From: Ignavibacteriota bacterium | GTDB taxonomy: Bacteria > Bacteroidota > Ignavibacteria > Ignavibacteriales > Melioribacteraceae | Assembly: GCA_002698995.1 (NCBI GenBank) | Contig: PAAX01000023.1 | Coordinates: forward strand, 1 to 64,000 | DNA: 64,000 nucleotides | Reading direction: 5' to 3' | Shown here: piece by piece, positions 1,341 to 62,600 of the stretch | Numbering within the stretch: position 1 is the stretch's first letter | Layout of the letters: each line of letters starts with the position of its first letter | Translations under genes and position numbers: made by a program | The notes under the pieces: generated by a model | What the model saw: only the letters and a program-made list of their open reading frames with translations | Told to the model about the DNA's origin: nothing | Database searches by the model: none

Positions 1341-2357
1341 TTAGTTATTAATTGTATTGATTGTAAATCTTGATTTCACACAGTTATTTGAAACAGCAGT
1401 AATTTGAAATTGCATATCTAAAATCCGGCAGCCTAAATCGATTATTTTCATACCGAATTTGTCAGGTTTATCTAATTCAAAATCTTTATCCAGCATAGAA
1501 TAATTTGTAATTGATATTACATATTGATCATCTTTTGCTACAGCCAACAGTTCAACTGGAGTATGAGACATACTGTGTTGGAAGGCGTTTTCGACTGCTT
1601 CTTTTAAGATTGTCTGAAATATAAAAGTATTGGTGTTTATTTCTAATTCGCTTATGATTAGAGAAATATCATTTTCTCTTAAATCTTTTTTTGCAATTTC
1701 TTCAACTAAATTTTTGATATTTATAAATGAATATTTTTCTAATAGATGAGCTTTTTTAGAATTGGGTAAATCATTCATTATTTCGGATAATTTTGCATAA
1801 CTAGTATACTTTTCTTTTCTCTTTTTATCTTTTTGCTCTTCAATTGTCTTTCTGGAAAGTGCGTCTAAAAGTTCATCTTCATCTAAATTAGAATTTTTAA
1901 GCGATTCTATATCATGATTTGATGAATCAATAACCTCAATTAAAACCGAATCATCTATTGAAATAGAAGTTGAGTTTTTTCTTAAATGTATTACTTGCTT
2001 CCTTTCACTTATACGCGAATTTATTTTTTTGAGAATGTCACTCGACTGATAAGGTTTTTTTATTATGTCAGTGTAATAATCCGGTGCTGTTAAACTGTGA
2101 TCATCATTAGTACAGTTTGATAATAACAATATTGGAGTTGATTTGAGATTAAGTTTATTTCTTACATAATTCAGCAGATCAATTTTACTATTTGAATGTA
2201 AATCGGTAATTATTAATTCGGGTAGGTGAGTATAAATGCGGCGTATTGCATCTTTGGGATTAAAAGCGGTAACAGCCTCATAATTATTATGAAGCAATAG
2301 GGATTCTAAACTATGTAAAATATTTTCATCTTTTACAACTATTAAAACTTTTTCCAT
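1341..2357 (-). CDS. response-regulator receiver domain fused to a degenerate histidine-kinase-like ATPase domain
   Basis: Cytoplasmic 338-residue protein without membrane segments. The N-terminus is a receiver (REC) domain with phosphoacceptor Asp52 in the IITDLHSN strand and a conserved Lys in KKPYQ near residue 101. A linker with a lysine/glutamate-rich helix follows. The C-terminal 120 residues look like a HATPase_c fold, with an N-box (EAVENAFQHS) and a late G-box-like FGMKIIDLG. No HisKA phospho-histidine helix is visible, and the usual D-x-G-x-G box reads ITNYS. It may therefore bind a partner, as anti-sigma-type ATPase domains do, and not act as an ordinary kinase. It lies upstream of the chemoreceptor and downstream of a LytTR regulator, all on the minus strand. 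The target is unknown. Confidence 0.75.
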   Translation of the reverse strand: MEKVLIVVKDENILHSLESLLLHNNYEAVTAFNPKDAIRRIYTHLPELIITDLHSNSKIDLLNYVRNKLNLKSTPILLLSNCTNDDHSLTAPDYYTDIIKKPYQSSDILKKINSRISERKQVIHLRKNSTSISIDDSVLIEVIDSSNHDIESLKNSNLDEDELLDALSRKTIEEQKDKKRKEKYTSYAKLSEIMNDLPNSKKAHLLEKYSFINIKNLVEEIAKKDLRENDISLIISELEINTNTFIFQTILKEAVENAFQHSMSHTPVELLAVAKDDQYVISITNYSMLDKDFELDKPDKFGMKIIDLGCRILDMQFQITAVSNNCVKSRFTINTINN

Positions 2358-2567
2358 AATGCTGCCGATTCGCTTTATTTAATACTCGATAATCGGCTTT
2401 TGTGAATGCGCTTTTTATTAGAATGTTGTAAATGAGATTTTTTTGCAGTAAGCGAGTAATTATTGAAGTGAATAAATAGGGATTGTATTACTCAATATAT
2501 TTTCATGGATAATGAAAAAGATTTTTGGTTATTCTTTTCTCAAATTCTTGGATCAATTGAACTAGGA

Positions 2568-3329
2568 TTAAAGTCCTAGATTAGATTTTATTTTAGCGGT
2601 AAAACGCTGACTAACAATAAATTCTTTCTCTGAAAATTTCATTGTTATTTTCATAGAACGTTTAAACCAGCTTTCAATTTTTTTAATTCCGTTAATATTT
2701 ACGATTGTTGAACGATGAATTCTAATAAACTCATGATCGGGGAGTAAATGTTCCCAATCCTTTAAAAGTTTTCTTACTACATGTTTAGAACCATCATTTA
2801 ACTCTATTTGGGTATATTCGGAAAGGGCAATAATAGAAAGTATTTCGGAGATATTAATAAAAAAGGATTGATTTTTTACTGTGATTAAAACTCTGTCATC
2901 ATAAGAAAATTTGTTTTGCACAGTCTCTTTATCTATCTGAAGTTTCCCTTTAATTTCTTCTTTTCTGCGAAGTCTTACTTTAATAGTTTCAAGAAGTTCT
3001 TTAGCTCTGTAAGGTTTAACAATGTAATCATCGGCACCGGTAAGCATTCCTTTTCTCATGTCCTCAATTGTTGATTTGGCAGTAAGAAAAATAAAGGGAA
3101 TATCTACTGTAGAATCACTTTTACTTAGGTTGCTTTTAACTTTGTAGCCATTGGATTTGGGCATCATTATGTCACAAAGTATTAAATCGGGTGTATTAGT
3201 TTTTGCGGCTACAATTCCCTCGTTACCGTCATGTGCCAGGGTAACTTGATATCCGGCTTCTTCCAGGAGATCTTTTAAATTGCTCCTAACATTTAAGTCG
3301 TCTTCAATTACTAATATTTTTTTCTGCAT
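2568..3329 (-). CDS. LytTR-family response regulator
   Basis: DNA-binding response regulator of 253 residues. The receiver domain (residues 1-120) has the acidic pair Glu9/Asp10, phosphoacceptor Asp53 in LILCDIMMP and the conserved Lys in IVKPYRAKE. The C-terminal 100 residues match the LytTR DNA-binding fold, with the signature FIRIHRSTIVNINGIKKIE and a following FIVSQRF strand. LytTR regulators bind imperfect direct repeats upstream of target genes. No cognate sensor kinase is adjacent; the nearest signalling partner is the downstream REC-ATPase protein, 210 nt away. The gene is divergent from sdhCAB across a 503-nt intergenic region, so autoregulation or sdh control is possible but not shown. 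Confidence 0.9.
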   Translation of the reverse strand: MQKKILVIEDDLNVRSNLKDLLEEAGYQVTLAHDGNEGIVAAKTNTPDLILCDIMMPKSNGYKVKSNLSKSDSTVDIPFIFLTAKSTIEDMRKGMLTGADDYIVKPYRAKELLETIKVRLRRKEEIKGKLQIDKETVQNKFSYDDRVLITVKNQSFFINISEILSIIALSEYTQIELNDGSKHVVRKLLKDWEHLLPDHEFIRIHRSTIVNINGIKKIESWFKRSMKITMKFSEKEFIVSQRFTAKIKSNLGL

Positions 3330-3832
3330 AGGAAATTTGTGTTATTTTAAGTGGAAAATTTTACTCTATAAAGCACCCTGAAAACCCCATAACAATATGT
3401 TTAGAAATATTTGCTAAATCAAATTTATTTTTTTGAGAAGACGAATAATTTTTTTAATAAGGCATAGTATATCCTTTTAACATAGTGCAGAATAAAAGGC
3501 AGCCTCAAATCAAACTAATTTAATTTGAGTGAATGAAACTGTATATATAATTTATTTTTACTGGTTTAAAATAATCGTTTAGCCTATAAACCAAATTACA
3601 TTTTCTGTTGAATCAATTTGCTGATTTTCTATTTTTCAAGAAATGAATAATTAATACGATGACTCAAAATTAATTTTTGATATTAAATCATAAAAAACTA
3701 TTTTAGGGATAAATTAACCTCATTATTTATTTATAGAACTTCTTAACATTTATGGAATGTTTATAGTATTGTTATGAATCATATCACACAACAATCACAT
3801 AATCCAATTTTTATTAAACAGGAGGAGAATTA
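3330..3832. promoter_or_regulatory. long AT-rich intergenic region between a LytTR regulator and sdhCAB
   Basis: This is the longest gene-free stretch of the window, lying between divergent genes, so it should hold both promoters. I see no convincing open reading frame. A 7-bp inverted repeat (CTCAAAT ... ATTTGAG) spans about 3504-3529. The sdhC end holds a TATAGT-like box near 3760, without a well-spaced -35 hexamer. A strong AGGAGGAG ribosome site precedes the sdhC ATG. I cannot define transcription starts from sequence alone. Confidence 0.5.
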
Positions 3833-4492
3833 ATGGGCTGGCTTTCAGAAAGTCTTAATTCATCTATTGGCAAAAAATTTATAATGGCCCTTACAGGAAT
3901 TTCTCTTATACTATTTTTGATTGTTCACTTGGCAGGCAATTTAACATTGTTTATTGGTGAAGAAGCATTCAACCTATATGTTGAATCATTGGACAAAATC
4001 AAACCGTTTATAAGAGTAATTGAAGTTGTATTGGCAGCCATTTTTATTTTTCATATCGTTAACGGTATTAAACTCTATTTTGAGAATAGAGGAGCGAGAC
4101 CGGAAAAATATGCTGTTAATGGTTCAAGAAAAAACAGTACTCTCTTTTCCAGAACTATGGCTCAGACCGGAAGTATCATTTTTATTTTCCTTGTTATTCA
4201 TTTATCTACTTTTTGGAAAGCATTTAATCTTGATACCCATGCTGCGGATGCTTCTTATTATAATATTGTATTGGAGTGGTTTCAAATTGAATGGTACGCA
4301 GTTCTTTATGTTATTTGTATGATAATATTAGGATTTCATCTTAATCATGGTTTCCAAAGTGCATTTCAAACTTTTGGATGGAATCATAATAAATATGCAT
4401 CACTTATTAAAAAGATTGGTACTGGTTATGCAGTTATAATGGCAGTTGGATTCGCTTCTATTCCAATCTACTTTTTATTAGGAGGTATGTAA
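3833..4492 (+). CDS. sdhC: succinate dehydrogenase/fumarate reductase cytochrome b subunit
   Basis: Membrane anchor of respiratory complex II, passing electrons between the flavoprotein/iron-sulfur subunits and the quinone pool. The 219-residue protein has five hydrophobic segments. Histidines in [23 protein letters not shown] and GFHLNHGF sit where the family binds two b hemes, as in the single-subunit diheme (type B) anchors of Bacteroidota and Wolinella. The start is fixed by a strong AGGAGGAG SD 7 nt upstream. The stop overlaps the sdhA ATG by one base (TAATG), implying translational coupling. No separate sdhD exists, which fits type B. Confidence 0.95.
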
Positions 4493-6402
4493 TGGTAAAA
4501 TTAGATTCAAAAATTCCAAGCGGACCATTAGCAGAAAAATGGACTAATCATAAGTTTAATATCAAATTGGTTAACCCGGCAAATAAACGTAAATACGATA
4601 TTATTGTTGTAGGTACCGGATTAGCCGGAGCGTCAGCTGCAGCAACTTTAGGTGAACTTGGCTATAATGTTAGTGCTTTTACCTTTCATGATAGTCCAAG
4701 AAGAGCACACAGCATTGCAGCTCAAGGTGGAATTAATGCCGCTAAGAATTATCAAAATGACGGTGATTCAGTATACAGATTATTTTATGATACTATTAAA
4801 GGGGGAGATTTTAGAGCCCGTGAAGCTAATGTTTATCGTTTAGCTGAAGTATCAAATAATATTATTGATCAATGTGTAGCGCAAGGTGTTCCTTTTGCAA
4901 GAGAATACGGCGGATTACTCGATAACCGTTCTTTTGGCGGTGCTCAAGTTTCCAGAACATTTTATGCTAGAGGTCAAACCGGACAACAGCTTTTACTTGG
5001 TGCATATTCTGCTCTAAACAGACAGATTGCCAAAGGCAAAGTTAAAATGTACAATAGAAAAGAAATGGTTGATTTGGTTGTGGTTGACGGCAAAGCTGCA
5101 GGTATTGTAACCAGAGATTTAGTTTCAGGTGAAATTGAAACTTACTCTGCTCATGCTGTTATTCTTGCAACCGGCGGATACGCAAACGTTTTCTTCCTAT
5201 CTACTAATGCGATGAATTGCAATGTTACAGCAGGATGGCGTGCTCATAAAAAAGGTGCTTTCTTTGCTAATCCTTGTTATACACAAATTCACCCCACATG
5301 CTTACCGGTTCATGGTGAACATCAAAGCAAGCTAACTCTTATGTCTGAATCTTTAAGAAATGATGGAAGAGTGTGGGTTTCAAAATTAAAAGGAGATATG
5401 AGGAATCCGGGAGATATTCCGGAAAATGAAAGAGATTATTATTTGGAAAGAAAATATCCGTCATTCGGAAATCTTTCTCCAAGAGATATTTCTTCAAGAA
5501 GTGCAAAAGAAGCGGTTGATGATGAGAGAGGCGTTAAAGGTCAAGAAGCTGTTTATTTGGATTTTGAAGATGCTATAAATCGTTTAGGCAAAAAAGCTAT
5601 TGAAGAAAAATATGGTAATTTGTTTGAAATGTATGAAACAATTACCGGTGAAAATCCTTACCAAGTTCCAATGAAAATTTATCCGGCTCCGCATTACACA
5701 ATGGGAGGATTATGGGTAGATTATAATTTAATGAGTAACCTTCCCGGATTATTTGTTCTTGGTGAAGCAAACTTTTCAGATCATGGTGCAAACAGACTTG
5801 GAGCTAGTGCTCTAATGCAGGGTTTGGCTGATGGTTACTTTGTAATTCCTTATACAATTGGAAATTATTTAGCTTCAGATAAACCGGAAAAACATGCTGC
5901 TAATAGTGCTCCATTCAAAGAAGCAGCTAATCAAATAAAAGATTTCACAGCTAACTTATTGTCAATTCAAGGCAAGCATACTGTCGATGAAATCCACAAA
6001 AAGCTTGGCAGAGTTATGTGGAATCAAGTTGGTATGGCAAGAAATGCCGAAGGATTGAAAGCAGCAATAAAAGAGATTAAAGAATTAAAAGAATTATTCT
6101 GGAATGATGTTAAAGTTGTTGGAAAAGCAGAAGAATTAAATCAAAATTTGGAAAGAGCAGGAAGAGTAGCCGATTACCTCGAATTAGGTGAACTTATGGC
6201 ATTGGATGCTCTTGAAAGAAACGAATCTTGCGGTGGTCATTTTAGAGAAGAATATCAAACTCCCGAAGGCGAAGCATTAAGAGATGATGAAAACTATACT
6301 CACGTTGCTGCTTGGCAGTTTGACAAAGCCGGAGCATGGACTCGCCATAAAGAAGAACTTACTTTTGAAAATGTAGAATTAAGTACAAGGAGTTATAAAT
6401 AA
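4492..6402 (+). CDS. sdhA: succinate dehydrogenase/fumarate reductase flavoprotein subunit
   Basis: Catalytic flavoprotein that oxidises succinate to fumarate (or the reverse). The 636-residue length fits the Bacteroidota/Wolinella type. Near residue 40 is the dinucleotide-binding motif [18 protein letters not shown]. The motif [11 protein letters not shown] carries the histidine expected to hold covalent FAD. Further conserved blocks are the HPTC substrate region, the arginine-rich [11 protein letters not shown] and the late FAD-binding [19 protein letters not shown]. It sits between sdhC and sdhB with one-base overlaps on both sides. Whether the complex runs as dehydrogenase or fumarate reductase cannot be decided from sequence; the family does both. 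Confidence 0.97.
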
Positions 6403-7178
6403 TGGCTGAAAAGATGATTAATCTAAAATTAAAAGTTTGGAGGCAGAACGGACCAAAAGCCGTTGGAGCATTTGAAGATCACGATGTTTCTGTTTCAGCT
6501 GATTCATCTTTTCTTGAAATGCTTGATGAACTTAATGACTCTCTTGAAAGAAACGGCAAAGATCCTGTAGTCTTTGAAAGCGACTGTCGTGAAGGAATCT
6601 GCGGTACTTGCGGACTTGTAATTAACGGACAGCCGCACGGACCAATTCCTAAAATTGCTACTTGCCAATTACATATGCGACATTTTACAGAAGGACAGAC
6701 AATTTGGATAGAACCATTTAGAGCAAAAGCATTTCCAGTTCTAAAAGATTTGGCAGTTGATCGTTCTGCATTTGATACTATTATGCATGCCGGAGGTTAT
6801 GTTTCTGTTAATACCGGCGGTGTTCCGGATGCTAATGCAATTGCAATTCCAAAAGATGTTGCTGCCGAAGCTTTTGATGCAGCTGCTTGTATTGGATGCG
6901 GTGCATGTGTTGCGGCTTGTAAAAATGCTTCTGCAATGTTGTTTGTCAGTGCAAAAGTTTCTCAATTTGCGGTGCTTCCTCAAGGTCAGCCCGAACGTTA
7001 TACAAGAGTTCAGAAAATGGTGAAAGTTATGGATGAACTTGGTTTTGGAAGCTGCACAAATACTTATGCTTGCGAAGCTGAATGTCCGAAAGGAATTTCT
7101 GTAAAGAATATTGCAAGAATGAACAAAGATTATATTAAAGCAAAAGTAAAAACTGAAAAAATAGAATTAGAAGCATAG
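6402..7178 (+). CDS. sdhB: succinate dehydrogenase/fumarate reductase iron-sulfur subunit
   Basis: Electron-transfer subunit linking SdhA flavin to SdhC hemes. The 258-residue protein shows the plant-type [2Fe-2S] cysteines in [16 protein letters not shown] with a later Cys in IATCQL. The cysteines for the [4Fe-4S] and [3Fe-4S] clusters follow in [15 protein letters not shown] and [16 protein letters not shown]. The start overlaps the sdhA stop by one base. A strong terminator hairpin follows 9 nt after the stop, so sdhCAB looks like a self-contained transcription unit. Confidence 0.97.
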
Positions 7179-7187
7179 TAATTTTTG

Positions 7188-7238
7188 ATTCGTCATTCTG
7201 ATGCGCTTAATTCAGCAATTCAGAATGACGAATTTTTA
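7188..7238 (+). terminator. rho-independent terminator of sdhCAB
   Basis: A perfect 14-bp inverted repeat (ATTCGTCATTCTGA at 7188-7201 and its complement at 7220-7233) with an 18-nt loop is followed by TTTTT. It lies directly after the sdhB stop. Confidence 0.85.
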
Positions 7239-7322
7239 TGAATTATTTCCCCTCAATTAACCGCTTTTTTGATCAGAAATTATATTATTTTTAATTTCTT
7301 ATTACAAAGTATAACTTTAACT

Positions 7323-7688
7323 ATGAGCAAAACAGAATTACTGGATTATAACGCTTTAGAAACTATCAAAAAATTTGATACTTCTACAATAAAAGAAAAT
7401 GTTGCCGCGTTAAGCTCAATTGAACAAAAGATTAGATATCTTGAGGAAACTAACAAAGAATTAAAAAGATTAATTGAAGAATTGACCCTTTCTTTAGAAA
7501 AAATTAGTTTAACTAATATTCCGGCAATTGAATTTGAAAAAAGATTATCGGTAGTCAGTTATAAAAATTTGATTTTTAGAAATGCAAGGTTTACTGTTCT
7601 TGAAGAATTGTTATTTTGGAAAGACCAATACATAATTAAGATTATTGCAGAAAAGAATAGATTAAGTCAAAAAATTAGAGAAAGTTAA
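7323..7688 (+). CDS. small coiled-coil protein of unknown function
   Basis: Not recognised. The 121-residue reading from the ATG at 7323 begins MSKTELLDYNALE and is rich in Lys, Glu, Leu and Ile, with a likely coiled coil (roughly residues 30-65). It has no signal peptide, membrane segment or cysteine motif. An in-frame TTG at 7269 would add 18 hydrophobic residues, but that extension overlaps the region just after the sdh terminator and looks untranslated. The gene is 21 nt upstream of the very acidic gene at 7710 and probably co-transcribed with it and obgE. Confidence 0.65.
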   Translation: MSKTELLDYNALETIKKFDTSTIKENVAALSSIEQKIRYLEETNKELKRLIEELTLSLEKISLTNIPAIEFEKRLSVVSYKNLIFRNARFTVLEELLFWKDQYIIKIIAEKNRLSQKIRES

Positions 7689-7709
7689 TCTCTGCTTAAA
7701 GGATAAAAA

Positions 7710-9647
7710 ATGTTTGAAAAAGAAATTAAATTTATTTTTGATTTTACCACAAACAAAACCAAATCATTAGGAAATTTTAATACATTTACTGAACTTTCCA
7801 AGATTGGGATGCATCCGGCTATTCTCAAATTTATTTCTGCTGATATTGACTATTTGATTTTTGAAGACCGGCAGTCACTACTTAAAAATTCCGCTTTTGA
7901 TTATTCAGGTGAAAAAATTAATAAATACTTTTCACTGATAAATGATGAAATAAAAAAATCAAAAAAACTTTCTGCTGATTATATCAACAAATTGATTTTA
8001 CATGCAATTACATTTAATGTCAATTATTTGATAAGACCACGCTGGGCTTTGGAAAAATTTGTCTTTGAAGATTCCCCAAGTAAATCTGTTTTGGAAATAA
8101 ACCAAATACTGAATTATCTTTTCTTCTATCCTCATATAAAAAAGATTATAATTTCATACTTAACTAAGAAAAAACTTCTTTCCATTAATCAATCTGATTT
8201 TAATGAACTTCTAAAAAATATCGATAAAATAACTATTGAATCCTCTCTTCCAACAGTAATAAATACAGCTCTTATTTCTATAGTTGATTTTATGAGTATC
8301 GGTTCTGTGGCTAAAGATACAATTCACTTAAATGGATTAAAAGTTTTCTTGAATGAAAAAGAACTTAATAGACAAGTTAATACGCTTATCAATCATTTTG
8401 GAAATGATGATAAACAAAGAATAAAAGTAAAAGAGGCTGCTTCTTTACTATTAAACATTGATTCATCTGAAGAAATATTTGAAGAAAAGGAAATTATTAA
8501 GGAGGAAATTTTAGAAGAATTCTCCAATGAAGATGTTCCCGAAAAAGAAGAAACTGAATTTGAAATTTCAGAAAAAGAGGAATCGTTTTTGGAGAATTTT
8601 GAAGAAAAACCGATTAAGAATGTTGAAGAAATTGATGAACTTACAGACGACGAAATAGCTAATAATTCAGATGATGAAGAAGAACTTGAAGATGAAGGTC
8701 TGCTTCTTCACCATAAATTTCATGATGAAAATCCAATTACTCTTTTACCGGATGAACATTTTGAAGATGATACAAATCATGAAATAAAAGAGAATGGAAA
8801 TCAAAATTATACTGATGAGGATTTTCATGAAAGTGAATTTGACAGCGAAGATCCTTCCGATATTATTGATGATGAAGATTACTTTAAGGATTTAGAACAT
8901 TATCATTTATTAACCGAAGAATCTGAAAAAGAAGAAGTAATTGATGAAGATGAATCAAACGATAATGAAGAAGAGAAATTAGAATCTACAAAATTCATGA
9001 AAATTGAAAATCTTGATGAAACCGAGGATGAAGAAGATTCAATTTTTGAAATCAAAGATTCGGCTTTGCTTGATGATATCTTTACCACCGCAGTAGATGA
9101 AAACGAAGAAGAGATTATTGAACCAAAGCAGACCGAAAGTGATAAAGATGATTTCTTGGATAACCAAATTGATGATGAAGAACTTTTAGATGAATTTCCG
9201 GACGAAGAAGATTTTAATGAGAAGGATTCCACAGAAGTATCAACAGATGAATTACTTAATGATGAGGATCCGTTGCTTTTTTCTGAGGAAGAATTATCCG
9301 ATAAAGAAACAATTGATTTGGACAATGAGATTAAAACGGATAATATAATTGAAGAGGAATATGAATACGACAACACAAGAACATCGGAAGAGCAAGCTTC
9401 CGGCAAGCGTATGATTGAAATGTCCGATCTTCTTGAAAATAAAAATATGACAAAAATAATAGAAGTTGTTTTTGATTATGATATGGAAGATTTTGCAAAT
9501 ACCATCGAAAAAATATCGGAATGCAGTAATAAGGATGCAGCATTACTTATCTTGAATAAAATGCTGGAGACAAATAGAGTAAATCCTCAAATAAAAGAAG
9601 CAGAAATACTTAAAGAAATAATTTCAAAATATTTTGACGAACACTAA
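7710..9647 (+). CDS. large hyperacidic protein of unknown function, upstream of obgE
   Basis: Not recognised. The 645-residue protein has three parts. Residues 1-250 are an ordinary mixed-charge, probably helical domain. Residues 250-570 are low-complexity and dominated by Glu and Asp, with recurrent EEE, DDEE and DED runs. The last 80 residues return to normal composition (from MIEMSDLLENKN to the end). There is no signal peptide or membrane helix, so it is probably cytoplasmic. An AAGGATAAAAA stretch precedes the ATG and serves as SD. It ends 5 nt before obgE, suggesting a shared transcript and perhaps a link to ribosome assembly; this is context only. A basic partner such as RNA, ribosomal protein or DNA-binding protein would suit the acidic middle. 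Confidence 0.8.
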   Translation: MFEKEIKFIFDFTTNKTKSLGNFNTFTELSKIGMHPAILKFISADIDYLIFEDRQSLLKNSAFDYSGEKINKYFSLINDEIKKSKKLSADYINKLILHAITFNVNYLIRPRWALEKFVFEDSPSKSVLEINQILNYLFFYPHIKKIIISYLTKKKLLSINQSDFNELLKNIDKITIESSLPTVINTALISIVDFMSIGSVAKDTIHLNGLKVFLNEKELNRQVNTLINHFGNDDKQRIKVKEAASLLLNIDSSEEIFEEKEIIKEEILEEFSNEDVPEKEETEFEISEKEESFLENFEEKPIKNVEEIDELTDDEIANNSDDEEELEDEGLLLHHKFHDENPITLLPDEHFEDDTNHEIKENGNQNYTDEDFHESEFDSEDPSDIIDDEDYFKDLEHYHLLTEESEKEEVIDEDESNDNEEEKLESTKFMKIENLDETEDEEDSIFEIKDSALLDDIFTTAVDENEEEIIEPKQTESDKDDFLDNQIDDEELLDEFPDEEDFNEKDSTEVSTDELLNDEDPLLFSEEELSDKETIDLDNEIKTDNIIEEEYEYDNTRTSEEQASGKRMIEMSDLLENKNMTKIIEVVFDYDMEDFANTIEKISECSNKDAALLILNKMLETNRVNPQIKEAEILKEIISKYFDEH

Positions 9648-9652
9648 AACCT

Positions 9653-10639
9653 ATGTTTATTGATTACGCAAAAATAGAACTAATAGCTGGAAACGGCGGT
9701 AACGGAGCTGTTGCATTCAGAAGAGAAAAATATGTTCCTAAAGGAGGACCTTCAGGAGGTAACGGCGGTAACGGCGGAAGCATTATTATAAAAGCTGATA
9801 GAAATCTGCATACTCTTTTAGATTTTCGATACAAGAAGAAGTATGCTGCACAAAATGGTCAGCAGGGTGGAAATTCATTAAAGGATGGTAAAAGTGCTGA
9901 GAACTTAATCATAAAAGTTCCGGTTGGAACTGTGGTTAAAGATGCCGAATCAGATTTAATAATTGCTGATTTGGATGAAGATGAAAAAGAATTCATCGCT
10001 GCAAAAGGGGGCAAAGGGGGAAAGGGAAATTCAAATTTTGCTACGCCTACAAATCAAGCACCACGATTTGCAGAGGATGGAAAACCTGGTGAAAGTGCAA
10101 ATATTATTTTGGAATTAAAACTTCTTGCAGATGTTGGTTTGGTTGGATTTCCGAATGCCGGTAAATCAACTTTTATTTCTGCAATTTCTGCCGCAAAACC
10201 TAAAATTGCCGATTATCCTTTCACTACACTTCAACCTAATTTAGGAATTGTTCAGTATAAAGATTTTCAAAGTTTTACCGTTGCCGATATTCCAGGTATT
10301 ATTGAAGGTGCACATGAAGGGAAGGGATTAGGACATAAATTTTTAAGACATATTGAGCGAACTGGAATTTTATTGATAATGATTGAATGTTCAGAAGAAA
10401 ATCCAATTGAGAAGTATAAAATAATTTTAAATGAGTTAGAGAAATACAGTGATTTACTTGCTGAAAAAGAAAAAATTGTTGTCCTAACCAAAGTTGATTT
10501 ATTACCTAGTGAAGAATTAAAGAAACTGAAGAAAATAAAATTTCCCGGTTATAAAGATAAATTGTTTATAATCTCAAGTGCTGCGGGAATAGGAATTAAT
10601 GATTTATTAGATGAGTTATGGAAAAGACTGTTCGATTAA
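9653..10639 (+). CDS. obgE: GTPase Obg (CgtA), short form
   Basis: Essential GTPase that binds the large ribosomal subunit during assembly and stringent control. The glycine-rich Obg fold fills residues 1-155 (GGNGGNGGS and GGKGGKGNSNFATPTNQAPRF). The G domain follows, with G1 GFPNAGKSTF, switch region YPFTTLQPNLG, G3 DIPGIIEGAHEGKGLG, G4 TKVD and G5 SSAAG. The 328-residue protein ends after the G domain and lacks the extra C-terminal OCT domain of longer Obg proteins, as is common in this phylum. Its last 22 nt overlap the following permease gene. Confidence 0.97.
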   Translation: MFIDYAKIELIAGNGGNGAVAFRREKYVPKGGPSGGNGGNGGSIIIKADRNLHTLLDFRYKKKYAAQNGQQGGNSLKDGKSAENLIIKVPVGTVVKDAESDLIIADLDEDEKEFIAAKGGKGGKGNSNFATPTNQAPRFAEDGKPGESANIILELKLLADVGLVGFPNAGKSTFISAISAAKPKIADYPFTTLQPNLGIVQYKDFQSFTVADIPGIIEGAHEGKGLGHKFLRHIERTGILLIMIECSEENPIEKYKIILNELEKYSDLLAEKEKIVVLTKVDLLPSEELKKLKKIKFPGYKDKLFIISSAAGIGINDLLDELWKRLFD

Positions 10640-56128: not shown

Positions 56129-57085
56129 ATGGCAGAAAATCATCACAAGGTAGTAATTATTGGTAGCGGGCCTGCCGGTTTAACAGCAGCATTGTACACA
56201 GCAAGAGCTAATTTAAGTCCGGTTATTTATGAAGGGATGCAGCCGGGAGGACAATTAACAATTACTACTGAAGTTGAAAATTATCCGGGATTTGAACATG
56301 GTATTCAAGGTCCCGAATTAATGGATGTTATGAGAAAACAAGCATGCAGATTTGGTGCGGAATGTAAGTTTAAAGAGATTTCAGAAGTAGACTTTACGAA
56401 GAGACCATTTGTTTTGAAGTCTGATAACGAAACAATTACAGCTGATTCAGTGATAATTTCTACCGGTGCTTCGGCAAAATTGTTGAATATAGAAAGTGAA
56501 TCCAAATTTATGGGTTACGGTGTTTCGGCATGTGCAACCTGCGATGGCTTTTTCTTTAAAGGATTAAAAGTTCTTGTAGTTGGCGGCGGTGATACTGCAA
56601 TGGAAGAAGCAACCTATTTAACAAAATTTGCTTCAGAAGTTACCATTGTTCATAGAAGAGAAGAATTTAGAGCTTCCAAAATTATGGTTGAACGTGCACA
56701 AAAAAATCCTAAAATTAAATGGGAATTGAACGCAACTATAAAAGAAGTTTTAGGAACCGATGAAAATGGAATGAAAAAAGTAACCGGTGCTGTATTGGAA
56801 AATACACAAGATGGTTCAACAAAAGAAATTTCTGCAGATGGAATTTTTATAGCAATTGGTCATCAGCCAAATACAAAAATATTTAATGGTAAATTAGATA
56901 TGGATGAAACCGGATATTTAAAAGTAAAACCAGGTTCAACATACACTAGTGTAGAAGGAGTTTTTGCCGCCGGTGATGTGGCAGATAAAACATACAGACA
57001 AGCAATTACAGCTGCCGGTACAGGTTGTATGGCTGCTCTTGATGCACAAAGATGGCTTGAAGCTCAAGGATTAGACGAAGAATAA
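56129..57085 (+). CDS. trxB: thioredoxin-disulfide reductase
   Basis: Reduces thioredoxin with NADPH. The 318-residue protein shows the FAD-binding [16 protein letters not shown], the redox pair Cys135-Ala-Thr-Cys138 in CATCDGFFF, the NADPH-binding [13 protein letters not shown] and HRRE, and the late FAD block [23 protein letters not shown]. It has its own terminator and lies just before the accessory cluster. Confidence 0.96.
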
Positions 57086-57113
57086 AACAAGATAAATTTG
57101 ATGTGAATTTGGC

Positions 57114-57142
57114 AGCCCGGCAATTTAGTCGGGCTTTTTTTT
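57114..57142 (+). terminator. terminator after trxB
   Basis: A stem of AGCCCG paired with CGGGCT around a 10-nt loop is followed by eight T residues, 28 nt after the trxB stop. It isolates the downstream accessory genes from trxB transcription. Confidence 0.88.
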
Positions 57143-57172
57143 GACCATTTTGCAAGCAATTGCAAAATAGTC
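57143..57172. repeat. near-perfect palindrome between trxB terminator and the PLD gene
   Basis: The inverted repeat ATTTTGCAA-GCAA-TTGCAAAAT (57147-57168) extends outward with GAC ... GTC after one mismatch, giving 13 potential pairs. It abuts the trxB terminator and lies about 150 nt upstream of the PLD gene. It may be an operator, a hairpin or an integration scar; sequence alone does not decide. Confidence 0.6.
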
Positions 57173-57322
57173 GGAATATTTCTCTAACTTATAACTATTT
57201 ATCCTATAAGCAAATTTGTAGTTTTCAATTAATAAATTGAATATTTTTTAAAAAAATGAGTTCTAAATTTTTAAAGAATTTTTTAATTAAGAATTGCATA
57301 GTAATTAATGAGGATAAAGGAA

Positions 57323-58384
57323 ATGGAATTAATAACTGAAAACATTGGTGAAGTCTTATTGAATCAATTACAAAATTTAGAGGAATTAAAAATTGCAGTT
57401 GCATATTTTGACCCCAGATCAAAGCGACTATTAGATGAACTAGAAAAAGTTAGCAATTTAACCCTAATAGTTTCTGATGATTTTACCGCTGTAAACCCTT
57501 ATACCCTGCAAGAACTTTTAAATAGAGGGAAAAATGTAAAATCTGTAGACTCTGGAAAAAATAATTTACTTCATTCTAAAGTTTACTATGCAGTGCGAAA
57601 GGATAACTCTTATTTTCTAATTGTTTCATCAGCAAACATGACTAGGAATGGCCTTTATAATAATAACGAAGCCTCAATACTTCTTGATTCAAAAATAGAC
57701 GATATAAAAAAAATAAAGGATTCTACAATTAAATGGTTCTCAGAAATAGAAAAGAAATCAGAGAAAATGGATTTTGAAAGTAAATATAGTATCTGGGATG
57801 AAAGAAATAAAACGTCAAAGAATAAACCAGGTTTAGCAGAAGAAAATTTCTGGATTTTAAAAACTCGAGGAGGTGGACTTGATGAATTTGATAACTGGTC
57901 TAAATTTAAGGAAGAGGGAGTTGTTGCAATCGGTTGGGGCGAGGATTTAACAAAAAGAACACCAAGCGAAGAAAACAAAGAAAAAATGACAAAAGAAATA
58001 TTAGAGAATATAAAAAAGTATAATAAACAAAAAGCAGCTGCTTCTGTAATATATAGTGAAATAAAAGCATTTTTTTCAATGAAAGTCGGAGACACAATAA
58101 TTATAATGGATGGCATTACGCCTAATCAGAAAAAGGAAGTCAGAATTATGGGTGTGGCAACTGTAACAAAATTTATAGGGGAGGATAGTAAAAGTGATTG
58201 GTGGATCTATAAACATAAAGTGGAAATAGTAGATTTTAAGGAAAAATATTTCCCGGTGAATGAAATTAAAGAAGCTTTAAATCTTGGTAGTTGTATGAGA
58301 ACGATTCATTCTATCAAATCTGAACGATATAGATTATTCAGTAATTATTTATTAACAAAACACAATATAAATCTTGGATACTAA
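57323..58384 (+). CDS. PLD-type nuclease domain fused to an EVE/PUA-like domain; candidate restriction or defence protein
   Basis: Residues 1-165 match the PLD_2 fold: one HxK motif (LLHSKVYYAVRK), then SSANMTRNGLYNNNEAS, with Ser/Asn/Glu typical of phospholipase-D-like nucleases. A single HxK implies a dimer, as in BfiI-type nucleases. A charged linker follows. Residues about 175-345 resemble EVE/PUA-like modified-base readers, as at McrB-type N-termini: FWILKTRGGG, VVAIGWGEDL, a helical insert, FSMKVGDTIII and VRIMGVATVTKF. The ATG at 57323 has AGGATAAAGG upstream; an ATG at 57308 adds five residues. Two small genes follow immediately. The role, modification-dependent DNA cleavage, is inferred from domain combination only. 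Confidence 0.72.
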   Translation: MELITENIGEVLLNQLQNLEELKIAVAYFDPRSKRLLDELEKVSNLTLIVSDDFTAVNPYTLQELLNRGKNVKSVDSGKNNLLHSKVYYAVRKDNSYFLIVSSANMTRNGLYNNNEASILLDSKIDDIKKIKDSTIKWFSEIEKKSEKMDFESKYSIWDERNKTSKNKPGLAEENFWILKTRGGGLDEFDNWSKFKEEGVVAIGWGEDLTKRTPSEENKEKMTKEILENIKKYNKQKAAASVIYSEIKAFFSMKVGDTIIIMDGITPNQKKEVRIMGVATVTKFIGEDSKSDWWIYKHKVEIVDFKEKYFPVNEIKEALNLGSCMRTIHSIKSERYRLFSNYLLTKHNINLGY

Positions 58385-58700
58385 ATTGCAAAAATCAGAA
58401 ATTTTAAAAATCACAAATATTGAGAAAGCTAAAGATATTTTCTTTATCAAAGGCGAAATTGATTTCGATCTAGTAAAATGTATCACTTCTCAAACAGTTA
58501 TCTTAAAAAGAAAAAATCCGCCGGATTTTATTATAAAACTTTTTAAAGAAGGCAACTATAAAAATAAAAAAGTAATTGTAGATACAACTAAATGCAAATA
58601 CAGTTTTATAGAAGTAAACGACTACAATGAAGAATATTTTCTTCCTTGCTCCCTATCAGGAAAAATTGAATTTGTGAAATTATATAAAAGCGGAGAGTGA
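58374..58700 (+). CDS. small protein of unknown function downstream of the PLD-EVE gene
   Basis: Not recognised. The 108-residue reading begins at TTG 58374 and overlaps the PLD gene end by 11 nt; a TTG at 58386 is an alternative with TTGGA upstream. It is lysine/isoleucine-rich, with alternating strands such as KDIFFIKGEIDFDLVKCI and SQTVILKRKN, and lacks a signal peptide or membrane helix. The tight overlap suggests co-expression with the PLD-EVE protein. Possible roles are partner, inhibitor or immunity factor. Confidence 0.65.
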   Translation: MDTKLQKSEILKITNIEKAKDIFFIKGEIDFDLVKCITSQTVILKRKNPPDFIIKLFKEGNYKNKKVIVDTTKCKYSFIEVNDYNEEYFLPCSLSGKIEFVKLYKSGE

Positions 58701-58703
58701 TAA

Positions 58704-59009
58704 ATGGAAACTGAAATTAAAAAAGGTAAGGTAGATGAATCAAAAGAACATTTCCTGTTGTATTTTAAGGAAATTCGTAGTAAACCATATGCGAAAATTT
58801 CCAAAAATGGTGATGGTTTTATTATTGAAATAACGAATATTTTCAGAAGTTATGGTATGGAATTAGCAAAAATGGAGATCAAAAGATATTTACTGGAATC
58901 TAAAGAAAATAATCCATGGGAGTATGCTAAATATAGATGCCGGACTATATCTAATGTTTATGCAGATATTCAATGGGCTTATTGCGAAGGTGAAAAGTCA
59001 AATGATTGA
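58704..59009 (+). CDS. small protein of unknown function, third gene of the PLD cluster
   Basis: Not recognised. The 101-residue protein starts at the ATG 58704 with GGAG 8 nt upstream, just 3 nt after the previous stop. It is a mixed alpha/beta sequence with a basic/aromatic core (HFLLYFKEIRSKPYAKISKNGDGFIIEI) and helical C-terminus (NNPWEYAKYRCRTISNVYADIQWAYC). It has no known motif, signal or membrane helix. It ends the cluster, facing the convergent SGNH gene. Confidence 0.68.
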   Translation: METEIKKGKVDESKEHFLLYFKEIRSKPYAKISKNGDGFIIEITNIFRSYGMELAKMEIKRYLLESKENNPWEYAKYRCRTISNVYADIQWAYCEGEKSND

Positions 59010-59056
59010 ACTAAAAAAGTATAATTAACTCACTTAGAATTTTCGCCCACCTTTTA

Positions 59057-59590
59057 TTAATCAAAAAATTTCTGAATCAATTTAACCAGCTCATCTCTCC
59101 ATAAATTATAAGCTGACTCTGTTAGATGAAGTCCATCATCAGTAAATTCTTTTTTTAGTTGATTCGATTCATCCTTCATTAATTTATTCAGATCAAAGAA
59201 TAATGCATTCCTTTTTTCGGCAGTTATTTTTAGAAGTTCGTTGAATTTATCTATTCTGCTGTTTGGACGTGGCTTATTTTCTCTTGATGGAAATATTGTT
59301 GTAAGAATTATTTTTGAATCTGAGTATTTCCTTATTTCAGAAATAATTTCTTCTATTTGAGCAATTATAAAATCATTAGAACGAAATCTGGCAAAATCAT
59401 TTGTTCCTATGCAGAGAGAAATAAAATCGGGCTTAAATTCAAACCATTCCTTGCTTATTCTTGAAAGAGTTTCAACTGTACTATCACCGGAAACTCCTCT
59501 ATTATCAATTATAAAATTCTCATCAAAATGGTTACTACCAAAAGATGCGGTGATTGAATCCCCAATAAATAGTATCTTTGTAGAATGCAT
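59057..59590 (-). CDS. SGNH/GDSL-family hydrolase
   Basis: Esterase/lipase-like enzyme of 177 residues. Block I holds the nucleophile in ILFIGDSITASFG, block II has the oxyanion glycine (NRGVSGDST), block III has LCIGTNDFARF and block V has the catalytic D-x-x-H in DDGLHLTESAYNLW. There is no signal peptide, so it is probably cytoplasmic. The ATG at 59590 begins at a natural position before the first strand; an upstream TTG (59608) overlaps the SD. Divergent from the propeller kinase with only 48 nt between starts, it may share control. Substrates could be acetylated sugars or lipids. Confidence 0.9.
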   Translation of the reverse strand: MHSTKILFIGDSITASFGSNHFDENFIIDNRGVSGDSTVETLSRISKEWFEFKPDFISLCIGTNDFARFRSNDFIIAQIEEIISEIRKYSDSKIILTTIFPSRENKPRPNSRIDKFNELLKITAEKRNALFFDLNKLMKDESNQLKKEFTDDGLHLTESAYNLWRDELVKLIQKFFD

Positions 59591-59638
59591 AAAAGTTTTT
59601 TTCTCCAAATAATAAAATAGACTGATTAAAAATCTCTA

Positions 59639-62600
59639 ATGAAATATTCATTAGCAATAACATTAAATTTTCTTCTTGTAATTTCACTCCTTTCTCAATC
59701 AAGAAACATTGAGTTTGAACGCATTTCTATAGATGACGGACTTTCGCAAAGTTCCGTTTTTTCTATTATTCAAGATAGTAAAGGATTTATTTGGATTGGA
59801 ACATTAGACGGTTTAAATAAATACGACGGTTACAATTTTATGATTTACCGTTCTATTCCAAACAACGAAAATTCTTTGAGTCATAATACTGTCTTTAAAT
59901 TGTATGAAGATTCCGAAGGAACTTTATGGATTGGAACTTTGGGTGGAGGATTAAACAAATATGTTCCGGAAATTGACGGATTTATTCATTATGAATTGGA
60001 TAATTCAGAGCATTCCCTTAGCAACAATAATGTAAGATCGATTTTTGAGGATAGTAAAAACAATTTATGGATTGGTACTGATAACGGATTAAATCTTTTT
60101 GATAGAAAGAACAAAAAGTTTATTAAATATTTAAATGAACCTGAAAAAAGAAATTCATTAAGCAATAATACTATTTGGTCAATTGAAGAAGATAAAAACG
60201 GAACTCTTTGGATTGGCACTTATGCCGGTCTGAATAAGTTTGATTATCATACAAATACATTCAAAAGATATTTTCACAATCAATATGATCCAAATTCTTT
60301 AAGCAACAATTATGTATGGAATATCCGCACATTCAATAATAAATTATTAATGATTGCTACAAATTACGGGTTAAGTATTTTTAATACAGAAACTGAAACT
60401 TTCAGTAATTTTTATAATAATCCGAAAGAGTCGAATTCCATTAGCCATAATAATGTGTGGGATATTTTTATTGATAACAAAAACGAAATTTGGATTGCTA
60501 CGCTGGGCGGAGGTATTTCAAAGGTTGAAGAATTTGTTATAGTTAATGATAAAGTAACCGAATTAAATTTTTCTAATTACCTAAATAATAAACGGGATGA
60601 TAAATCATTATCTCATAATCTTGTCTGGTCAATTTTTCAAGATAAATCCGGTTTAATTTGGATTGGTACTGATCTTGGTCTTAATAAAATAAATACTAAT
60701 TCAAAAGGGTTTGAACATTTTTACAGCCATCCGTTTGAAGAAAACTCATTAAGCAGTAATGAAATTACGGCGATAATTGAAGACTCAGAACAAAATCTTT
60801 GGATAGGTACAAGAAATGGACTCAATTATTTTAATACTTCTGCAAATAAATTTAAGAATTACTTTTTCGAAGGAAATAATTCCATAAGTAATAATTATGT
60901 TCGTTCTTTATATATGGACAAAGAAGGACTTATTTGGATTGGAACTAACGGCGGCGGTTTAGATAAATATAATCCCCAAACAAAAAGATTTTCAAATTAC
61001 TCAGTTGGATTTAGTCCTAATTCTATTTCTAATAATAATGTTTCTACAATTCTAGAAGATTCACAAAATAATATGTGGATTGGTACACTTGCCGGATTAA
61101 ATCTTTTCGATAGACAAAAAGGAAGTTTCAGAAACTTCATTTCTGATAGAAATGATACTACTACAATTAGTCATGATTATATCTCTGCGATTTATGAAGA
61201 TTCAAAAAATAATTTATGGATAGGTACTTTAGGCGGCGGCATAAATAGGTTGGATAGAACTAATCTTACTTTTGAAAGATTTGAATTTAATCCCAACGAT
61301 AAAAATTCTATAATTAATAATTATGTGTGGTCGATATTTGAAGATGATAAAAACAGATTGTGGATTGGAACAAATAATGGTCTCGAAAAATTTGATGAAA
61401 ATAATAATCAGTTCATCCATATAAATACAAATAAAAACTTTGCTTACGATGCGGTTTATGGAATACTTCAGGATAACTCAGGCTTTATTTGGATTAGTAC
61501 AAACAGAGGATTAATAAAATTTCTACCCGATTCTAACTTTGTAAGAGTATATGATTTTGGTGATGGACTTCAAAGCAATCAATTCAGCGGCGGTGCTGCT
61601 TGTAAAGGAAAAGATGGTAAATTATATTTTGGCGGAATAAACGGATTCAACTCTTTTTATCCAAATCGTATTAAGGATAACGAATACATACCTAATATTG
61701 TAATCAGCAAGTTTGAGGTTCTTAACAGCACATTAACTAGCGAAGAACTTTCTAAAATCAATCAGTCACTTTATAGTAACGGATCAATAAATCTTGGTTA
61801 TAAATCGAATTCTTTTTTAGTTGAATTTGCAGCATTAGATTTTACACTTCCTTCAAAAAATCAGTATTCATATAAAATGGAAGGAGTCGATCAGGATTGG
61901 ATTGAATCAGGTACCAGAAAATTTGTTACATACACAAATCTTGATCCAGGCAGTTATACTTTCCATGTTAAAGGTTCAAACAACGATGGAATTTGGAATG
62001 AAGAAGGGACTAAGTTAAGCATTATAATTACTCCTCCTTTTTGGATGACATGGTGGTTTATACTAATAATTATCTCAATAATTTTTGCAATTATAAGTCT
62101 GGTTATTTATGCACAGATTAATCACCTATTAGAAATGGAGAGACTAAGAGTAAAAATTGCCGCTGACCTGCATGATGACATAGGAACAAGATTAACTGAA
62201 ATTTCTATGATTACTGATATTCTTTATCATAAAAAAAGTAATTGTGATGATCCCGATAAAGAAACAATAAGAAAAGTAGGTGGAATTGCCAGAGCATTGA
62301 TTGATAACATGAGTGAAATTGTTTGGTTGATAAATCCCAAAAGAGATACTCTTTATGAATTATTTATGAAACTTCGGGATACTTACGAAGAGATTTTAAG
62401 TTATTCAAACATTTATCTGCAGATTAACAATTTCAATTTTCTTCAAAAGATTCGTCTTCCAATGGAATATAGAAAAAATCTTTACTTAATTTTTAAGGAA
62501 GCAATGAATAATAGTTTAAAGCACAGCGGATGTACTGAAATTTCTATCAATGCAAATCTTACAGGAAAAACTTTGGAAATTACTTTATATGATAATGGAA

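Follow-up and report, generated by a model that had tools for sequence, protein, structure and literature searches.

A candidate modification-dependent restriction endonuclease that joins a PLD nuclease to an EVE-like domain, and two small genes whose relatives follow Nmad2-Nmad3

The locus behind trxB in this Ignavibacteriota genome raises the question of what is encoded by a gene that appears to join a nuclease to a reader of modified bases, and of how the two small genes that follow it are related to that function. We analyzed the locus in the window, by which we mean the whole stretch of 64,000 nucleotides (contig PAAX01000023.1, positions 1 to 64,000), and compared its products with those of other genomes, plasmids, phages and contigs. 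The main open reading frame lies on the forward strand at 57308-58384 and encodes 358 aa, with a TAA stop codon ending at 58384. The better start is the ATG at 57323, with GAGGA (57310-57314) eight bases 5' of it as judged by eye; this gives a PLD-EVE-like gene at 57323-58384 (353 aa), and the ATG at 57308 is the alternative. The motifs HSKVYY, SSANMT..N.E, VVAIGWGED, KVGDTIII and VRIMGVATVTKF occur in this order along the protein.

Two small genes follow on the same strand, s2 (58386-58700, 104 aa from the TTG at 58386, or 108 aa if the TTG at 58374 is used instead) and s3 (58704-59009, 101 aa, with GGAG at 58692-58695). The initial annotation had given them an 11-nt overlap and a 3-nt gap. 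Both reading frames are present, with 3 nt between s2 and s3, but the 11-nt overlap of the main gene and s2 holds only with TTG 58374 as the start. The alignment to the homologue in genome G381 begins at TTG 58386, which suggests a 1-nt gap to the main gene. The sequence has both boundaries that had been proposed for the cassette, a convergent SGNH gene and a trxB terminator. On the upstream side the boundary is a terminator-like hairpin after trxB (57114-57135, forward strand; 8-pair stem, 6 GC pairs, 7 T), and shuffled sequences yield 1.1 such sites on average in 56900-59700, such that about one is expected by chance. The convergent SGNH gene (PF13472, 1.1e-25) ends 47 bases beyond the s3 stop codon. 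The GC content of the cassette (0.26-0.30) is not unusual compared to that of the window (0.31).

The N-terminal domain (residues 20-144 in the 358-aa numbering; 57365-57739, forward strand) belongs to the single-HxK PLD nucleases and is kin of BfiI and SauUSI, in agreement with the reading first taken from HSKVYY and SSANMT..N.E. It scored over the curated Pfam cut-offs for PF13091 (5.7e-9) and PF09565, the N-terminal PLD domain of NgoFVII (7.2e-6), and a PDB sequence search with the main protein returned BfiI (2c1l, E 9.2e-5). Residues H89, K91, N110 and E121 align with BfiI 105, 107, 125 and 136, which we take to be the catalytic residues of that enzyme. H89, K91, Y93, S108, N110, T112 and E121 are invariant across 14 aligned PLD sequences. 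The full-length structural model is confident in this part (block mean pLDDT 75-92, residues 11-160), and its top row in VIA-align was SauUSI (Z 18.2, 160 aligned, rmsd 2.5), with Nuc (16.1), PLD3 (16.0), BfiI (Z 15.5, rank 11) and the NgoAVII R protein (13.1, rank 29) in further rows. PADLOC matched the main protein best to REase_II (2.9e-7), then to ZacB (6.5e-7) and DrmC (4.3e-6). Because ZacB and DrmC are also matched through it, the PLD domain by itself is not enough to identify the system, a point that we count against our preferred reading.

Neither Pfam, NCBIfam nor PADLOC assigned a name to the C-terminal domain, and there was no hmmscan match of the main protein to PF01878, the canonical EVE family. 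In PHROGs, residues 7-125 of the C-terminal part matched phrog_10226 (E 1.4e-8). Using the phrog_10226 profile on 247 genomes of the phylum, we obtained matches in 11, including the genome of the window. The proteins from the ten other genomes were read, and four of them (L017, L019, L020 and L026) were run on Pfam. Two of the four (L019 and L020) have Mrr_cat behind the phrog_10226-type domain. L026 is a McrB-type AAA protein that has, besides the phrog_10226-type domain, one Pfam-named EVE domain ahead of it, and L026 matches McrB in NCBIfam too, below the cut-off there. L017 had no Pfam-named domain.

Nine of the ten phrog_10226-type domains, without the weakest (L027) and without the query, were aligned (alignment A4). 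Compared with A4, the query C-terminal domain gave an hhalign probability of 96.6 (E 5.4e-10, 134 columns), and an HMM made from A4, again without the query, found the query ORF (E 2.1e-7, residues 182-298). In control comparisons, the C-termini of 48 other PLD proteins reached at most 10% with EVE-like profiles, and s2, s3, Nmad2 and Nmad3 (see below) were all below 1% with the EVE-like sets. Nmad3 compared with EVE gave 24% over 33 columns, and by hhalign there was no detectable EVE likeness in Nmad2, Nmad3, s2 or s3. Together, the phrog_10226, hhalign and HMM results indicate that the predicted C-terminal domain (residues 181-338; 57848-58321, forward strand) is related to the EVE-like domains of Mrr/McrB restriction proteins. 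The order of VVAIGWGED, KVGDTIII and VRIMGVATVTKF had earlier been likened to EVE-type readers, a likeness that the profiles sustain in this Mrr/McrB form.

We take the N-terminal domain of the Mrr/McrB proteins (the A4 type) to be EVE-like. None of the nine A4 domains was named EVE by Pfam. The match of A4 to classical PF01878 EVE proteins was weak (hhalign 51.3% over 33 columns; 77% with the query included), and the query alone reached 11.6%; we count this weakness against our preferred reading. The label 'EVE-like' for the Mrr/McrB domain is a provisional one that combines this weak hhalign link with the customary view of the family. The weak link is in line with the statement, in the part of PMC7641849 available to us, that many defence EVE domains are detectable by sensitive methods only.

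By homology, the C-terminal domain would have a PUA/EVE fold. Modelled alone, the C-terminal part had a mean pLDDT of 38.7, and block means in the full-length model were 35-60; these values are too low to confirm that fold, and we count them against our preferred reading. The strand/helix order in the latter, b-a-b-a-b-b-b-b, is at this confidence consistent with EVE and nothing beyond that; the same order is given for EVE in the accessible text of PMC7641849. With the C-terminal model (pLDDT 38.7) there was no Foldseek match at E<=0.001, and the 50 rows listed were pyruvate kinases, from E 0.07, from which nothing was drawn. No EVE entry was among the 50 VIA-align rows listed, most of which span residues 1-162, and the EVE-like-set profiles found no credible solved structure. 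Two matches to the C-terminal part were set aside, DUF5495 (0.0008 and 0.002 in two scans, below cut-off; residues 288-336, window 58169-58315) as probably due to chance and Cdc13_OB4 (0.028) as chance. The DUF5495 stretch also weakly resembles T4 55.1 (E 0.8).

The initial annotation had proposed HMM searches for the PLD and EVE combination and for co-occurrence of the two small genes; our searches did not recover the combination elsewhere with confidence, and what recurs instead is s2 and s3, behind Nmad2-Nmad3. The full protein matched 11 of 395 phylum genomes including its own. In the ten other genomes the match was partial: in eight it was confined to the PLD domain, with one genome matched at two places, and in two (L009 and L011) it fell in stretches with stop codons. 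There was no full-length relative among the 395 phylum genomes and no credible relative of the C-terminal part among 164 genomes of the order, and both results count against our preferred reading. The order-level C-terminal matches L014-L016 (E 8e-4 to 5e-3) were set aside as chance; L014 is permease-like by eye. In plasmids and phages the full protein had no relative at E<=1e-3. The C-terminus had no match in plasmids at E<=10 and six weak records in phages (best E 0.5), three of which are T4 records with 55.1.

Seven viral-contig scans with the window protein as first row gave no PLD-EVE protein; their sole locus (L028) is a PLD enzyme that by eye belongs to the NgoFVII type and lacks an EVE part. 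An eighth scan, with an EVE-like query, gave L081. A genome-contig scan gave 52 PLD loci, 50 with a usable PLD match and 48 with at least 60 residues behind it. None of these 48 tails scored above 10% with EVE-like profiles, and the best, in L059 from Salinivibrio siamensis, is a weak candidate with an EVE-like pattern by eye. In all, the genome, plasmid, phage and contig searches yielded no confident second example of a PLD-EVE protein. Because the pattern-based selection has low reach, this absence is not evidence of rarity, and 'numerous' EVE-PLDc fusions are reported in what we could consult of PMC7641849. We also observed, in Pedobacter ginsengisoli (L047; 5806-7041 on the forward and 9557-10636 on the reverse strand), a PLD restriction-type enzyme whose gene lies about 2.5 kb away from that of an EVE-like protein (HMM E 2e-23 to 9e-25). 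The EVE-like protein L017 has relatives in Streptococcus phages and satellite phages that are about 25-28% identical and mostly hypothetical proteins; these are possibly phage-carried defence.

trxB was found in all 24 other relatives searched, and in none of the 24 did tblastn (1e-4) find PLD-EVE, s2 or s3 within 1.5 kb of it. In 22 of these relatives the 1.5 kb read also includes queG, ahead of trxB, and in 15 a sigma-factor-like gene comes after trxB (by eye from ORF starts). For the SGNH gene, 15 of 37 other genomes contain a relative; in three, a hybrid-sensor gene adjoins the SGNH relative, a neighbor common to those genomes and the window. The flanking genes (window 40-54 kb and the 17 kb past 62.7 kb) are housekeeping in appearance by eye. 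No defence island was seen by eye among the genes listed for these flanks, and we count this against our preferred reading. Because none of the 24 trxB relatives has the cassette and the flanks are housekeeping in appearance, it looks like a sporadic stand-alone insertion, outside any defence island. No DNA methyltransferase was recognizable by eye in the ORF lists, which covered the window from 40 to 62.5 kb (ORFs of at least 150 aa up to 54 kb and of at least 50 aa beyond) and the 17 kb that follow. Within that scope, this result and the sporadic occurrence of the cassette speak for our preferred reading. The same genome has genes reading as type I hsdM elsewhere.

The two small genes have few relatives. 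s2 matched six of the 395 phylum genomes at 0.01, strongly only in its own genome and in G381, where the homologue (G381:C140:60226-60531) is 48% identical (E 1.6e-30). A two-row s2 profile over 22 relatives added weak matches and nothing more. Weak s2 matches (L147-L150, L172 and L173; E 8e-4 to 8e-3) were set aside, L147 being antisense to a longer ORF. s3 matched eight of the 395 genomes, strongly only in its own, which has a paralogue (G000:C4:171041-171325) with 39% identity (E 2.3e-15). A weak s3-like gene in G128 (7.6e-4) keeps the GKVD and SN.Y..I.W.Y pattern and by eye is not near any Nmad gene; weaker s3 matches (L153-L158, E 3e-3 to 1e-2) were set aside.

Each of the two strong relatives found beyond the window directly follows the pair Nmad2-Nmad3 ('nucleotide modification associated domains'), which is rare. 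In G381, Nmad2 and Nmad3 are followed by the s2 homologue, 17 nt behind Nmad3. In the genome of the window they are followed by the s3 paralogue, 7 nt behind Nmad3, then by a KAP NTPase (PADLOC PDC-S20, 4e-142) and by genes reading as type I hsdM and hsdS. In the order, 3 of 160 genomes gave an Nmad2 match (the genome of the window, G381 and G462). From this shared position at two loci, which are few, we infer that the s2 and s3 families may act in this bacterial family as partners to modified-nucleotide modules. With the s2 and s3 profiles (E 10) there was no relative of either at the G462 Nmad2 locus, nor at the four Nmad2 loci viewed from 15 plasmid records matched, and these loci speak against any general association of the small genes with Nmad2. 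At three of the four plasmid loci, TIR, nucleotide kinase, pyrophosphohydrolase or uracil-DNA glycosylase genes are near. It is conceivable, though less likely than not, that s2 and s3 are exchangeable subunits of a wider modified-nucleotide sensing class in which the sensor-effectors are swapped and the small partners stay. The literature searched gave no account of such small genes. In the figure legends of the DefensePredictor paper (PMC13092281), which we had in part, NMAD is among the domains of tested and predicted defence systems, the Nmad family being unspecified there.

Several features of the Nmad loci were observed in passing. The region C4:164500-176389 of the genome of the window (L161), with Nmad2, Nmad3, the s3 paralogue, the KAP NTPase and the hsdM/hsdS-like genes at 2161-8443, is a likely defence region. 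In G381:C140 (L160, 6547-8840), Nmad3 is split over two frames ahead of the s2 homologue, and a HigA/HigB-like pair, recognized by eye, is just upstream of Nmad2. In two of the plasmid loci (L168 and L170, from Parabacteroides and Mesorhizobium), Nmad2 is directly behind TIR-domain genes and precedes genes for a nucleotide kinase, or for a pyrophosphohydrolase and a uracil-DNA glycosylase.

We consider it fairly probable that the main gene specifies, in a single chain, a modification-dependent (type IV) restriction endonuclease and that s2 and s3 are accessory proteins that also serve Nmad2-Nmad3. An EVE-like reader and a PLD nuclease are found in one predicted chain (Pfam, hhalign), and the modification-dependent reading is drawn from published EVE-nuclease fusions, as described in the portions of PMC7641849 and PMC7897488 available. 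Modification-dependent restriction had been proposed for this locus together with abortive infection as an option; the profiles and the published fusions favor the former, and the latter found no support. By analogy with known enzymes, the C-terminal domain would bind the DNA with a modified base flipped out into its pocket, and the PLD domain would pair with a second copy, completing the active site. Cleavage of nearby DNA by this dimer would then proceed by way of a covalent histidine intermediate and need neither metal nor NTP, in what would be a defence role. s2 and s3 would be co-transcribed with the main gene and might tune or restrain the reader or make it more specific, and might also serve other modified-nucleotide modules such as Nmad2-Nmad3.

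It seems unlikely that the enzyme is instead directed at RNA or nucleotides, with an EVE-like domain that reads a modification in RNA or a modified nucleotide, and a PLD domain that cuts RNA during infection. Zucchini, an RNA nuclease, and PLD3/PLD4 are in the VIA-align list of PLD folds, and the s2 and s3 families accompany Nmad genes. EVE/YTH relatives read RNA in other systems, according to the consulted parts of PMC7641849 and PMC7897488. Against this, the NgoFVII restriction family is among the PLD matches over cut-off, the PDB match is BfiI, and the C-terminal domain family is found in Mrr and McrB proteins. That BfiI is, by sequence, the closest relative with a solved structure could also be taken to mean that the protein is a sequence-specific restriction enzyme of the BfiI kind. 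BfiI has a C-terminal DNA-binding domain, and here the C-terminus would likewise read an unmodified DNA sequence. We regard this as quite improbable given that the C-terminus matches EVE-like domains instead, and that a DNA methyltransferase to protect host sites was not recognized by eye between 40 and 62.5 kb of the window or in the 17 kb after it. That PLD-EVE is a toxin with s2 or s3 as antitoxin is very unlikely: the small genes are close behind (a 1-nt gap, or 11-nt overlap, and 3-nt spacing) and EVE domains are known in toxin-antitoxin modules (PMC7641849, as far as seen), but relatives of s2 and s3 behind Nmad2-Nmad3 without PLD-EVE, and a weak s3-like gene standing apart in G128, fit a dedicated antitoxin poorly.

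As a candidate modification-dependent restriction enzyme, the predicted protein can be compared with several known systems. Like BfiI and the NgoAVII R protein (NgoFVII family, PF09565), it has an N-terminal PLD nuclease, with H, K, N and E aligned in BfiI; unlike them, it has a C-terminus that matches EVE-like domains and no DNA methyltransferase seen alongside. SauUSI, a type IV restriction enzyme and the top fold match, shares the PLD nuclease, but it is ATP-dependent (title of 7clg) with a chain of 838 residues, whereas PLD-EVE has no ATPase. With Mrr-type proteins that have an N-terminal EVE-like domain, it appears to share a reader of one family, joined in those proteins to Mrr_cat behind it and here to a PLD nuclease ahead of it. 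The Nmad2-Nmad3 cassettes have small partners of the s2 or s3 family in common with the PLD-EVE cassette, and differ in that no PLD or EVE domain was found in them. VcaM4I (EVE-HNH) is a single chain with a PUA-superfamily reader and a nuclease, as is predicted here, but its nuclease is HNH and its reader was placed in the EVE family from structure (PMC7897488, in the text available). The closest likeness in architecture is to the EVE-PLDc fusions, which are among those with predicted roles in modification-dependent restriction in the part of Bell et al. 2020 (PMC7641849) that we could consult. By that description they too combine a PLD nuclease and an EVE-type domain in one chain, whereas the reader here is of a diverged Mrr/McrB type without a PF01878 match, and two small genes follow. 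The fusion itself is thus already reported, and the small genes are what is new. What sets this locus apart as a variant is its diverged reader, the operon-like arrangement with s2 and s3, and the tie to Nmad2-Nmad3. It would extend predicted type IV restriction by a PLD nuclease with a diverged reader of the Mrr/McrB type and, through the s2 and s3 families, by a genomic link of such an enzyme to Nmad2-Nmad3 that we did not meet in the literature searched.
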